A DNA stretch of 52,148 bases from Candidatus Rokuibacteriota bacterium (GTDB lineage Bacteria > Methylomirabilota > Methylomirabilia > Rokubacteriales > CSP1-6), in the NCBI GenBank assembly GCA_003221615.1, contig QHSQ01000040.1, positions 1-52,148 of the forward strand, in the 5' to 3' direction. A model generated the notes under the pieces. That model was given only the letters and a program-made list of their open reading frames with translations. It did no database searches and had not been told where the DNA came from. Below, in pieces: positions 3,215-6,624 of this stretch (position 1 is its first letter; each line of letters begins with the position of its first letter). The translations under genes and the position numbers were made by a program.

Positions 3215-4180
3215 CTACGCGAGCGGGTCGGTGCTGCGTTCACGCGTGGCTCCAAGGAGCCGATCGACCTCCGCGCGAGTCGGCAGCGACGGCTGGGCGC
3301 CGCGGCGCGTGCAGGCGAGCGCGGCGGCCGCGCTGGCAAATCGCAGCGCGTTCGGGAGCGTGTCGCCGCCGCCGAGCGCCGCTCCGAGGGCGCCGTTGAA
3401 CGCATCGCCGGCGGCGGTCGTATCGACCGCCTCGACCGAGTAAGCGGCGGTGCGAATGTCGCCCTGCGCCGTGCACGCGATGGAGCCCTGAGCGCCGAGC
3501 GTCACGATCACGGTGCCGACCCCGCGCGCGCGCAGCGCGTGTCCGGCGGCGCCCGCGGAGCGGGCGTCCTGGACCGGAATCCCGCTGAGGCGCGCCGCCT
3601 CACCCTCGTTCGGCGTCAGATAGTCGACACGCCGCCAGACGTCGTCGGAAATACCCTCGCGCACCGGCGCCGGATTGAGCACCGTGACGAGGCCGCGCCG
3701 TCGGGCTTCCTCCAGCGCGAGCTCGAGGGTCTCGAGCGGCGTCTCGAGCTGACAGAGGACCACCTGCGCCCACGCGAAATCGTCCGCGCGCGAGCGGACG
3801 TGCTCGACGGAAAGTCGCCGGTTCGCGCCGGGCGCGACCACGATCTGGTTGCGGCCCTGGCCGTCGACGACGATGAGCGCCGTGCCCGTCGCGGCTTCAG
3901 GGGTGACCATCATGCCGTCCATGCCGATGCCCTCGGCCTCGAGCGCCGCGCGGATGTCGCGGCCCGAGGCGTCGTCGCCAACACAGGCGACGAAGCGGAC
4001 TTCCGCGCCGAGCCGGCGGGCGGCGACAGCCTGATTCGCGCCCTTGCCCCCATGATTGACGAGCAAGGTGCCGCCGCTGACCGTCTCGCCCGCGCCCGGC
4101 AGACGCGGGGCGGCGACGGTGAAGTCGACGTTGGCCGAGCCGACTACGAGGACGCGTCGCGCGGTGCTGGGCCCGGGCAC
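3215..4180 (-). CDS. rbsK: Ribokinase, PfkB carbohydrate kinase family
   Basis: From the chosen GTG the protein has 321 residues, beginning near RRVLVVGSANVDF. It carries the PfkB N-terminal signature GGKGANQAVA at about 44-53 and the C-terminal DTTAAGDAFNGAL at 253 onward, with the catalytic Asp at 259 (AAGD in place of the common GAGD). It should phosphorylate ribose at O5 with ATP. It overlaps the end of the nucleoside hydrolase gene by 37 bases, so the pair makes sense as salvage: nucleoside to ribose to ribose-5-phosphate. The frame stays open upstream of the GTG, but that part reads as a shadow of the hydrolase gene. The exact start is uncertain. Confidence 0.88.
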   Translation of the reverse strand: MPGPSTARRVLVVGSANVDFTVAAPRLPGAGETVSGGTLLVNHGGKGANQAVAARRLGAEVRFVACVGDDASGRDIRAALEAEGIGMDGMMVTPEAATGTALIVVDGQGRNQIVVAPGANRRLSVEHVRSRADDFAWAQVVLCQLETPLETLELALEEARRRGLVTVLNPAPVREGISDDVWRRVDYLTPNEGEAARLSGIPVQDARSAGAAGHALRARGVGTVIVTLGAQGSIACTAQGDIRTAAYSVEAVDTTAAGDAFNGALGAALGGGDTLPNALRFASAAAALACTRRGAQPSLPTRAEVDRLLGATRERSTDPLA

Positions 4181-5073
4181 AGGCGGTCCAGAAACCACCG
4201 GATGAACCGGTTGCTGTCGATGCCCTTCGCGACCCGGCAGTTCGGAGCTCCGTTGATCCGGAGCGTCTCGCCCTCGGGCCCGATGGCCAGGCGAGCCGCC
4301 TCCCACTTGCCGAGCGACGGATCGATCGCGAGCCCGACGGCGAGGGGGTCGTGCAGCGCCATGCCCTGCTCGCCGTCGCCGTGAGCGATCCGGAACCCGC
4401 GCTCGCTGAACCCCTGGATCCGCGACGCCAGCAGACCCGGCGAGCGCGCGAGCGTGGCGCGCATCCCGGCGCGGGGCAGCATCGCCTGGCGCGTCGCGTC
4501 AAGCGGGACCAGCTCGATCGGCAACCCGGCGGCGAAGACCCGATGCGCGGCCTCGGGGTCGACGGACATGTTGAACTCGGCGGTCGGGGTGACGTTGCCG
4601 GGCACGTCCACGGCGCCCCCCATCGCCACCACTCGTCCAACCCTTCCGAGCGCGGCCGCGTCTTCCTTGAGCGCGAGCGCCAGGTTGGTGAGCGGGCCTA
4701 GCGCCACGATCGTGAGGGCCCGCTCGTGGCGCCGCGCAAGGTCGATGATGACGCTCACGGCGTCCGGCGACCCCGGCAAGGGTGCGACGTCCGGCCAATC
4801 GGGCAGGTCGCCGAGCCCGTCTTCCCCGTGGTAGCGGGTCGCAGTCGTCAGCGCCCGGGCGAGTGGGCCCGAAGCACCGACGGCAACGAGAGGCCGCGGG
4901 ACCGGTTTCCGGAGCGCCAGGAGGCGCTGCAGGTTCGTGGTCGCGATGTCCACCGGCACGTTCCCGGCGACCGTCGTGATCGCCTCCACCTGGATCTCGG
5001 GCGAGTTCCAGGCGAAGAGCAGGGCCAGCGCATCGTCAATGCCGGGATCGGTGTCGATCAGGATCGGCGCCAC
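4144..5073 (-). CDS. Inosine-uridine preferring nucleoside hydrolase
   Basis: This 309-residue protein begins MAPILIDTDPGIDDA, the aspartate cluster at residues 7-14 that binds calcium and the ribose in this family. It continues with TTVAGN, the FNMSVDPEAA segment and LHDPLAV near the C-terminus, all conserved landmarks. It hydrolyses the N-glycosidic bond of ribonucleosides to free base and ribose. The downstream overlapping ribokinase gene would use the ribose. The first gene of the pair starts 65 bases from the divergent selenoprotein gene, so both promoters must lie in that short gap. Confidence 0.92.
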   Translation of the reverse strand: MAPILIDTDPGIDDALALLFAWNSPEIQVEAITTVAGNVPVDIATTNLQRLLALRKPVPRPLVAVGASGPLARALTTATRYHGEDGLGDLPDWPDVAPLPGSPDAVSVIIDLARRHERALTIVALGPLTNLALALKEDAAALGRVGRVVAMGGAVDVPGNVTPTAEFNMSVDPEAAHRVFAAGLPIELVPLDATRQAMLPRAGMRATLARSPGLLASRIQGFSERGFRIAHGDGEQGMALHDPLAVGLAIDPSLGKWEAARLAIGPEGETLRINGAPNCRVAKGIDSNRFIRWFLDRLCPGPAPRDASS

Positions 5074-5138
5074 GGAATCTCCTCATCGATGTCCCCCATC
5101 ATATTAGAATGAGAGTCACTTTCAGGGAGGAGGCGCGG

Positions 5139-5366
5139 ATGAACATCCAGATCAGATACTGCGGCGAGTGAAACTACCTGCCCCAGGCCTCCAGTTTGCA
5201 GGCCGCCATCAAGACCAAGTACGGACTCACCGCGGTTCTCAAGGAAGGGCACAGCGGGATCTTCGAAGTGTCGATCAACGACGATGTCGTCTACACGAAC
5301 GAGACGACATACCGGTTTCCGACGGACGAGGAAATCTTCGAGAAGATCGACGCCGCTAAGAAATAG
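5139..5366 (+). CDS. SelW/Rdx family selenoprotein with in-frame UGA (selenocysteine)
   Basis: A standard reading stops at the UGA at 5169-5171. Reading that codon as selenocysteine (U) gives a coherent 75-residue protein: MNIQIRYCGEUNYLP, then a helix ASSLQAAIKTKYG, strands TAVLKEGHSGIFEVSIND and a final helix DEEIFEKIDAAKK. C8-G9-E10-U11 is the CxxU redox motif of the SelW/Rdx thioredoxin-like family, and length and strand order fit. A strong ribosome site (AGGGAGGAGG) sits 5 bases before the ATG. A hairpin with a G-starting loop follows the UGA at a spacing suited to a bacterial SECIS. The role is probably thiol redox, with the partner unknown. The 3' end overlaps the convergent CoA-transferase gene by 11 bases. 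Confidence 0.88.
5186..5204 (+). promoter_or_regulatory. Bacterial SECIS-like hairpin downstream of the UGA
   Basis: The segment folds as five base pairs (GGCCU with AGGCC), one C-C mismatch, two more pairs and a GUU apical loop. Its first loop base, G at 5194, is 22 bases after the UGA. Bacterial SECIS elements recognised by SelB need a short hairpin within the coding region at about this distance, with a G among the first two loop bases. The fold was done by eye; no energy was computed. Confidence 0.65.
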
Positions 5367-6624
5367 CACGCCGAAGTAGCTCCTCTCGAAAGCGGGGATG
5401 GGCGACGGCGATGAGCGCTTCCGCCCGTCCCCGTTCTCCTTTCCCGCGCAGTGCCGCCGCACCGTGCTCGGTCACCACCCAGTCCGCCAGCGCGCGCGGG
5501 CTCGTCACCGCCGCTCCCGGTTGCAGCGACGGGACGATCCGCGACACCGCGCCGTCGCGCCCGGTCGACGGCAGCGCGATGACCGCGGCGCCCCCGCGCG
5601 AGCGCGAGGCGCCGAGGACGAAATCGAACTGGCCGCCGATCCCGGCCACCTGGCGCGGCCCGAGGCTCTCGGCCGTGACCTGTCCCGTCAGGTCGATCTC
5701 GAGCGCGGAGTTGATCGCCACGAATCGATCGAGCTGCGCGACCGTCTCCGGATCGTGAACGAAGCTCGAGGGCTCCATGTTGACGACGGGGTTCTCGTGG
5801 AGGAAATCGAAGAGCCGGCGCGTCCCCATCCCCTCGCCGACGTCCATGCGCCCGCGGTGCACGCGCTTGAGCGCGCTGGTGACGACGCCGCGCTCCACCA
5901 GCGAGACCGACGCGTCGACCAGCAGCGAGTGCAGCGAGAGATCGCGATGGTCGCCGAGCGCCTCGAGGACGGCCTGCGGGATCGCGCCAACGCCCACCTG
6001 CACCGTCGCGCCGTCGGGCACGAGCCCCGCGACGTAGCGCCCGATCGCGCGCTCGATGTCGCCGATGGGCGTCGGCGGATAAGGCGTGAGCGGCTCGTCC
6101 ACTTCCACCCAGCAGTCGATCTGGCTTCGGTGCAGGCACGCGTTGCCGAGCGTGCGCGGCATCGACGGATTGACCTGCGCGATCACGAGCGGAGCGCGTC
6201 GCGCCGCCGGCAGCGCCACGCTGACCGAGACGCCCAGGCTCAGGTAGCCTCGCGCGTCGGGCGGCGCGCAGTGGACCAGGACGCAGTCCGGCGCCCACAT
6301 GCCGCCGGCGGCGAACTGCGTGACCAGATCGAAATAGCGGATCGGGACGAACTCGACGCGTCCGCGGCGCCGTGCGTCCTCGAGCTGCGGCGACATGTGC
6401 CACGTCGCGAAGCGGAGCGCCGCGTGCTCCGGATGCGTCCACGGATAGTCGCCGAGATGGATCCCGCCGAGCAAGGTGAGGTCGCGCAGGCGCGCGGACT
6501 GACGGCAGATCTCCGCCACGAGCGCCACCGGCTCACCGCACGCCGGCGGCAGCAACACCTTCATCGCCGGCCCCAGCCGGGCGACGGCGTCAGCGAGCGA
6601 GCGACGGGTGAACGCGCGCGGCAT
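5356..6624 (-). CDS. Acetyl-CoA hydrolase/transferase family protein (4-hydroxybutyrate CoA-transferase-like)
   Basis: The 422-residue protein has the two-domain CoA-transferase family I architecture: an N-terminal part with FVPIRYFDLVTQF and the CAPPDARGYLSLG loop, then GATVQVGVGAIPQAVLEAL, PVVNMEPSSFVHDP and the C-terminal QVAGIGGQFDF and VTEHGAAALRGK motifs. Such enzymes move CoA between acyl groups through a glutamyl-CoA intermediate. At the usual catalytic site (HTE or HSE) this protein reads LHSLLVDA, so the catalytic glutamate is not evident. It may belong to a divergent subgroup. Only 45 bases separate its start from the divergent lipoprotein gene; a TATATATA tract lies there. Confidence 0.82.
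   Translation of the reverse strand: MPRAFTRRSLADAVARLGPAMKVLLPPACGEPVALVAEICRQSARLRDLTLLGGIHLGDYPWTHPEHAALRFATWHMSPQLEDARRRGRVEFVPIRYFDLVTQFAAGGMWAPDCVLVHCAPPDARGYLSLGVSVSVALPAARRAPLVIAQVNPSMPRTLGNACLHRSQIDCWVEVDEPLTPYPPTPIGDIERAIGRYVAGLVPDGATVQVGVGAIPQAVLEALGDHRDLSLHSLLVDASVSLVERGVVTSALKRVHRGRMDVGEGMGTRRLFDFLHENPVVNMEPSSFVHDPETVAQLDRFVAINSALEIDLTGQVTAESLGPRQVAGIGGQFDFVLGASRSRGGAAVIALPSTGRDGAVSRIVPSLQPGAAVTSPRALADWVVTEHGAAALRGKGERGRAEALIAVAHPRFREELLRRAIS

Follow-up and report, generated by a model that had tools for sequence, protein, structure and literature searches.

A selW-like gene with a conserved in-frame UGA in a Rokuibacteriota genome, very probably encoding a selenoprotein of the SelW/Rdx family

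Here, we describe a small gene located between two minus-strand neighbours in a stretch of 52,148 nucleotides from Candidatus Rokuibacteriota bacterium (contig QHSQ01000040.1 of assembly GCA_003221615.1), which is called the window in the following. The features of the locus are given in window coordinates, each with the evidence on which it is based.

4144..5073, minus strand: nucleoside hydrolase gene (PF01156), divergent from selW; profile match, conserved synteny.
5124..5133, plus strand: ribosome-binding sequence AGGGAGGAGG, shortly 5' of the ATG; read from the sequence.
5139..5366, plus strand: selW-like gene (Rdx family, PF10262); translation, profile matches, homologues.
5160..5171, plus strand: redox-type motif CGEU, codons 8-11; translation, structure model.
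5169..5171, plus strand: putative Sec-encoding UGA, codon 11; translation, homologues.
5186..5204, plus strand: proposed bacterial SECIS hairpin GGCCUCCAGUUUGCAGGCC (GGCCUCC-AGU-YUGCAGGCC); folding, constraint, alignment.
5356..6624, minus strand: gene of the acetyl-CoA hydrolase/transferase family (PF13336, PF02550), convergent, with an 11-nt overlap with the end of selW; conserved synteny.

An earlier note on this DNA had proposed a frame that reads through a UGA, with CGEU at residues 8-11, a strong ribosome site and a normal TAG end. Both the frame and the ribosome site, AGGGAGGAGG upstream of the ATG, are present as described. The frame at 5139-5366 comprises 75 residues followed by TAG (MNIQIRYCGEUNYLPQ...DAAKK, from the translation of 5139-5369), and codon 11 is its sole in-frame UGA. 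A reading under table 11 does not give one single frame; the note had expected standard gene callers to split or miss the gene. The statement that only wrong frames are open here is roughly correct and needs to be spelled out: among table-11 ORFs of at least 60 aa, selW is overlapped by one of 134 aa on the minus strand (5058-5462) and one of 63 aa on the plus strand (5168-5359) in a frame different from that of selW. On the neighbour side, the 3' end of the convergent ORF 5356-6624 (-) overlaps selW as well, and the minus-strand ORF 5291-6442 overlaps both selW and this neighbour.

The product was compared with protein family models and known structures. It reaches 58.3 bits (E 9.2e-16) with Pfam Rdx (PF10262), where the cut-off is 22.6, and 53.3 bits with the NCBIfam model TIGR02174 CXXU_selWTH, where it is 34.2. 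With the equivalog model NF041051 SelTWH_Campy it stays at 72.9 bits, under the cut-off of 88; judging by its name, we take this model to hold the SelW of Campylobacter jejuni, which belongs to the same family. A sequence search of the PDB gave six chains at E up to 1, including 3dex, 2ljk, 2fa8 and mouse SelW (2npb, E 0.51). For an AlphaFold2 model, the window protein was aligned with 20 of the 35 public homologues and U was entered as C; the mean pLDDT of the model is 93.6. In this predicted model, CGEU is located between strand 3-8, at its end, and helix 14-28. The best match of the model in a structure search against the PDB is a selenoprotein-W-related structure (E 2.0e-6, probability 1.00), and 22 chains lie at E <= 0.001, with TM values up to 0.91. 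These comprise 2fa8 and 2p0g, both titled selenoprotein-W-related, 2obk (putative Se binding protein), MIEN1 (2ljk), and 2ojl, 2oka and 3dex, whose titles name no family; mouse SelW follows next at rank 23. The Agrobacterium protein 2fa8, which presumably carries Cys at the U position, matches the fold with a TM of 0.85-0.90 at 24-25% identity in the structural alignment, and mouse SelW with a TM of 0.69 by query length at 20% identity. The suggested SelW/Rdx membership is thus borne out by two profile scores over cut-off, PDB sequence matches, a CxxU motif between first strand and helix and a predicted thioredoxin-like SelW fold: by profile and predicted structure, the product is a SelW/Rdx-family protein.

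A scan of public genome contigs yielded 35 selW loci, 33 of them titled Rokubacteria or Rokuibacteriota, one Methylomirabilota and one Zixibacteria. TGA stands at codon 11 in 34 of the 35, and Cys is found there in none of them. This alignment with homologues had been suggested beforehand as a check, and it demonstrates a UGA that is kept, free of decay. The frame goes beyond chance, as judged from the Rdx match and from its retention in 34 of 35 homologous loci.

The remaining locus, L025 (4001-4250), carries a 57-nt in-frame deletion that removes residues 2-20 together with CGEU and the hairpin, and leaves the start site and all other codons of the frame in place, so that the ATG is joined directly to codon 21. 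It belongs to the relative AR26 (genome G001), apparently the same genome as G089 of the same genus. The deletion may be real or an assembly artefact. Loss of the Sec trait as its cause is not supported, given the full-length selA of G001; the tRNA-Sec match of this genome is under the cut-off, but its selA starts 576 nt from a contig start, as against a distance of about 1.4 kb between tRNA-Sec and selA in the host genome.

A search across the phylum covered 95 genomes, with class as the most distant kinship listed and with sets that overlap the 35 loci. Rdx matches occur in 53 of them: 51 are of this selW class, G098 has another UGA class only, and G043 has a Cys type (CTQC). Of the 60 genomes that belong to the host's order, the host genome among them, 51 have the selW class, which was not found in any of the 35 others. 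Exactly one TGA lies inside the match in 49 of the 51. Of the two left, one is the copy with the deletion and one is truncated at the end of its contig. The codon at which the TGA stands was read in the 35 homologous loci and in separately inspected loci. The order members G078 and G079 carry an additional, separate Cys-type Rdx gene (CTQC).

Selection on both sides of the UGA was compared. For dN/dS pooled against the window sequence, 33 rows were used, excluding L025 and, as a distant one, L042; the ratio is 0.25 before the UGA (codons 1-10) and 0.29 after it (codons 12-71). Residues 12-25, right after the UGA, form the most conserved part (pN 0.006 vs 0.19 for residues 26-71). When each of 34 rows is compared with every other, pS amounts to 0.39 in codons 1-10, 0.42 in codons 12-15 and 0.38 in codons 24-71, and drops to 0.016 in codons 17-19 and 21-22, where there is almost no synonymous variation. 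For the serine at codon 19, every one of the 34 rows uses AGT, a codon that accounts for 1.7% of the 177 serine codons counted in 12 ORFs of the window taken as genes. By these measures, the frame downstream of the UGA is under purifying selection.

This bears on the explanation that the UGA is a true stop, followed by a decaying remnant or by a separate gene starting at TTG codon 20. In its favour, a TTG start is possible at this position, and L025 has its ATG fused to codon 21. However, purifying selection persists downstream of the UGA, the residues directly past it vary least, and none of the 34 loci that retain the region has anything but TGA at codon 11; CTG at codon 20 in eight of 34 rows removes the putative TTG start. 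The ongoing selection and the constant TGA lead us to reject a stop with decay, and we hold this explanation as a whole to be highly improbable.

The earlier note had proposed a search of the genome for the sel genes. The host genome is a 7.24 Mb draft in 596 contigs (96.48% complete, 8.55% estimated contamination), and all four genes, which together make up one criterion for bacterial selenoproteins, are found in it, each over its family cut-off: tRNA-Sec with 69.8 bits (cut-off 47; anticodon tca), selB with 377.4, selA with 586.7 and selD with 333.7. The genes for tRNA-Sec, selA and selB lie within 5 kb of each other on contig C263, the tRNA gene approximately 1.4 kb upstream of selA, and selD is located on contig C106 and has an in-frame UGA of its own after SCAG. 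Among 14 control genomes, the cut-offs are passed by tRNA-Sec in five, selB in two, selA in one and selD in two. Matches to tRNA-Sec under the cut-off are uninformative, as 14 of 14 control genomes give them.

Alternatively, a near-cognate tRNA might read the UGA, or the code might be reassigned, with a residue other than Sec inserted. The identity of the inserted residue cannot be told from sequence alone, which leaves room for this explanation. Against it stand the Sec system of the host genome, including a tRNA-Sec with anticodon tca, and the loop and spacing of the hairpin, which agree with the bacterial SECIS model. Moreover, six of 34 loci (L014, L021, L028, L035, L039, L042) also seem to end with a UGA where the C-terminus is expected, so that general reassignment is rejected. 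We give such decoding a very slim chance.

Among relatives, 35 genomes have homologous loci, and in 31 of them selA scores above the cut-off. In the phylum search, this applies to 83 of 95 genomes and, where this selW is present, to 47 of 51. The tRNA-Sec gene passes its cut-off in three of six genomes in one search and in three of eight in another, with 150 first-look candidates scored per genome (of 446-815 in G092, G112 and G122). These three genomes carry a Sec-selW and gave no match to selA and, among the 150 candidates scored in each, none to tRNA-Sec. Missing contigs are a possible reason, and they could explain the joint absence since the genes for selA, selB and tRNA-Sec are clustered; the completeness of G122 is put at 100%. 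Likewise, tRNA-Sec was not found among 150 scored candidates in either G088, with a partial selA, or G089, with a full one.

The letters of the hairpin at 5186-5204 are conserved. Its apical loop is GUU at 5194-5196 (GUY across rows), with 22 nt between UGA and loop, and both features agree with what the published bacterial SECIS model (PMC13188914) asks of loop and spacing. The bSECIS criterion asks for a stem of 4-16 bp and an MFE of at most -7.5 kcal/mol. The candidate has a stem of 5 + 2 pairs around one C-C mismatch and reaches -7.1 as a 19-nt hairpin and -8.6 within 50 nt, so its energy is borderline. Compared with shuffles, its stability is not higher, with z values of 0.15 (50 nt), 1.18 (60 nt) and -0.75 (80 nt). 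A comparison with Rfam gave one match only, far under the gathering score, which we take as chance.

Covariation was assessed on 48 sequences, 29 of them distinct; five class III paralogues, whose hairpin sits differently, were left out, and the shuffles leave sequence relatedness in place. Paired cells amount to 89.7% and the covariation score to 0.167 (shuffled mean 0.064), values that none of 500 shuffles reach, and slid versions of the hairpin pair at most 57.8%. The pair formed by columns 23 and 31, which corresponds to the C-C mismatch, is unpaired in 19 of the 29 distinct rows. The number of pairs changed on both sides (2 vs 1.4 in shuffles; reached by 223 of 500) and that of further pair types (5 vs 4.4; reached by 221 of 500) equal the shuffles. 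The two changed pairs are a U-A to G-C exchange between classes and a G-C to A-U exchange within class II. Two of the 35 class rows, L014 and L017, are without the two basal pairs, and L017 alone prefers another fold. Overall, the covariation evidence from these alignments is mixed.

Further UGA-containing genes of the host genome carry hairpins as well. A second Rdx gene, on contig C10, has its UGA in CVVU. In this second Sec-SelW class, a hairpin of eight pairs, one of them G-U, follows the UGA in 10 of 10 sequences; its basal pair is G-C in five and A-U in five, which, in such closely related sequences, reflects few independent events. Two FDH-alpha-like genes with in-frame UGA (UHAP and VUHGP; L112 and L114, on contigs C531 and C512) score below the TIGR01591 cut-off, and a third FDH-alpha-like match contains one TGA. 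The hairpin apex of L114 matches that of selW: the motif CAGUNUG after the UGA is common to selW, the second Sec-SelW gene and this one FDH-like gene, where the element reads GGUCGUC-AGU-CUGGCGGCC. L112 and selD likewise carry a hairpin after their UGA, each with a different apex from this one.

These observations have to be weighed against the explanation that selW does encode a Sec protein, while the constraint after the UGA has a cause other than a SECIS hairpin, or the SECIS folds differently. In its favour are the near-uniformity of the class I sequences, which leaves most pairs without information, and two covariation measures and a folding energy at the level of shuffles. Nevertheless, two pairs have changed on both sides, and hairpins with the same apex come after the UGA in one FDH-like gene as well as in two classes of SelW; we regard this explanation as improbable.

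We return to the reading of selW as a selenoprotein gene, the conclusion already drawn in the earlier note, which is supported by the machinery genes, the UGA kept free of decay and the SelW/Rdx family. From the comparative data, 5139-5366 is very probably a functional single gene for a SelW/Rdx selenoprotein, with SelB-dependent Sec insertion via the hairpin and a redox product. Our confidence is held up by family, machinery, UGA conservation and synonymous constraint; covariation is given less weight. Counting against this reading are the mismatch and the shuffle-level stability of the hairpin, the two covariation measures within the range of shuffles, the lost basal pairs in L014 and L017, the three Sec-selW genomes that gave neither a selA nor a tRNA-Sec match, and the estimated contamination of the draft. 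Translation would start at 5139. Once codon 11 is reached, the hairpin 5186-5204 would, following established Sec biology, be bound by SelB with Sec-tRNA-Sec, and the ribosome would insert selenocysteine at the UGA and continue to the TAG. The product would be a small thioredoxin-like cytosolic protein with a redox activity that is likewise expected from Sec biology, and C8-x-x-U11 would most likely cycle between selenol/thiol and selenenylsulfide forms.

The neighbourhood of selW is near-constant and consists of the nucleoside hydrolase, a PfkB-type kinase and the CoA hydrolase family. The acetyl-CoA hydrolase/transferase-family gene adjoins selW in 34 of 35 loci (not in L042) and the nucleoside hydrolase in 33 of 35, the exceptions being L040, which offers 84 nt before selW, and L042, which is without any of the five window neighbours tested. 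A wider proposal, in which a Sec-SelW without Cys replacement at the locus extends through nearly the whole order, accompanied in part of the genomes by additional Sec-SelW paralogues, the CAGUNUG apex is the element for SelB, and the neighbourhood points to a dedicated selenium-dependent redox role near nucleoside or carbon metabolism, is speculative and in our judgement rather unlikely as a whole.

The gene resembles SelW-like (SELENOW-like) selenoproteins of bacteria in its family, in its CxxU near the N-terminus and in the hairpin downstream of the UGA. It differs from other bacterial members by its branch in Rokubacteria-titled genomes and by the conserved nucleoside hydrolase and CoA hydrolase-family neighbourhood. 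SelW-like proteins in bacteria are listed in papers from 2005 and 2006 (PMC1088965, PMC1794560), top the selenoprotein table of the GOS data with 427 genes (PMC2398784), and appear as a CxxU selenoprotein family in a 2026 review (PMC13188914), which also refers to a MAG of Methylomirabilota for which 63 selenoprotein genes are predicted. Full translation of C. jejuni SelW past the Sec codon is described with backing from Ribo-seq and proteomics (PMC11955535), and SelW genes missed by annotation are reported in Epsilonproteobacteria (PMC4607533). Among the papers listed for selenoproteins or selenocysteine in Rokubacteria and for selenocysteine in Methylomirabilota, none is, by title and abstract, on this selW gene. 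SelW-like CxxU proteins are thus an already established bacterial selenoprotein family, of which this gene appears, from its sequence relationships, to be a well-supported further member. The general picture of bacterial selenoproteins is unchanged, since family and mechanism are already in print. What is gained is that an order known here from metagenome-assembled genomes would keep a Sec-containing SelW which is not one frame under table 11, and that the variant hairpins across relatives offer a natural set for testing what SelB recognises.

Some minor observations concern the relatives. One paralogue class with UGA, CVxU-GYxPVAVSV, occurs in L061 (1426-1719, minus strand) and in L094-L102, and also in the host genome. 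Another, CxVU-xD[LI]RREAxxL, was seen in relatives (L092, L093, L103, L104, L105); L105, the one member tested, is under the TIGR02174 cut-off. L109 and L110 look alike in using UGA both as Sec codon and as apparent stop. On the Zixibacteria contig (L042, 4001-5137), the gene that comes directly downstream of selW encodes an arsenite methyltransferase (NF008823, 341.5 bits, cut-off 263).
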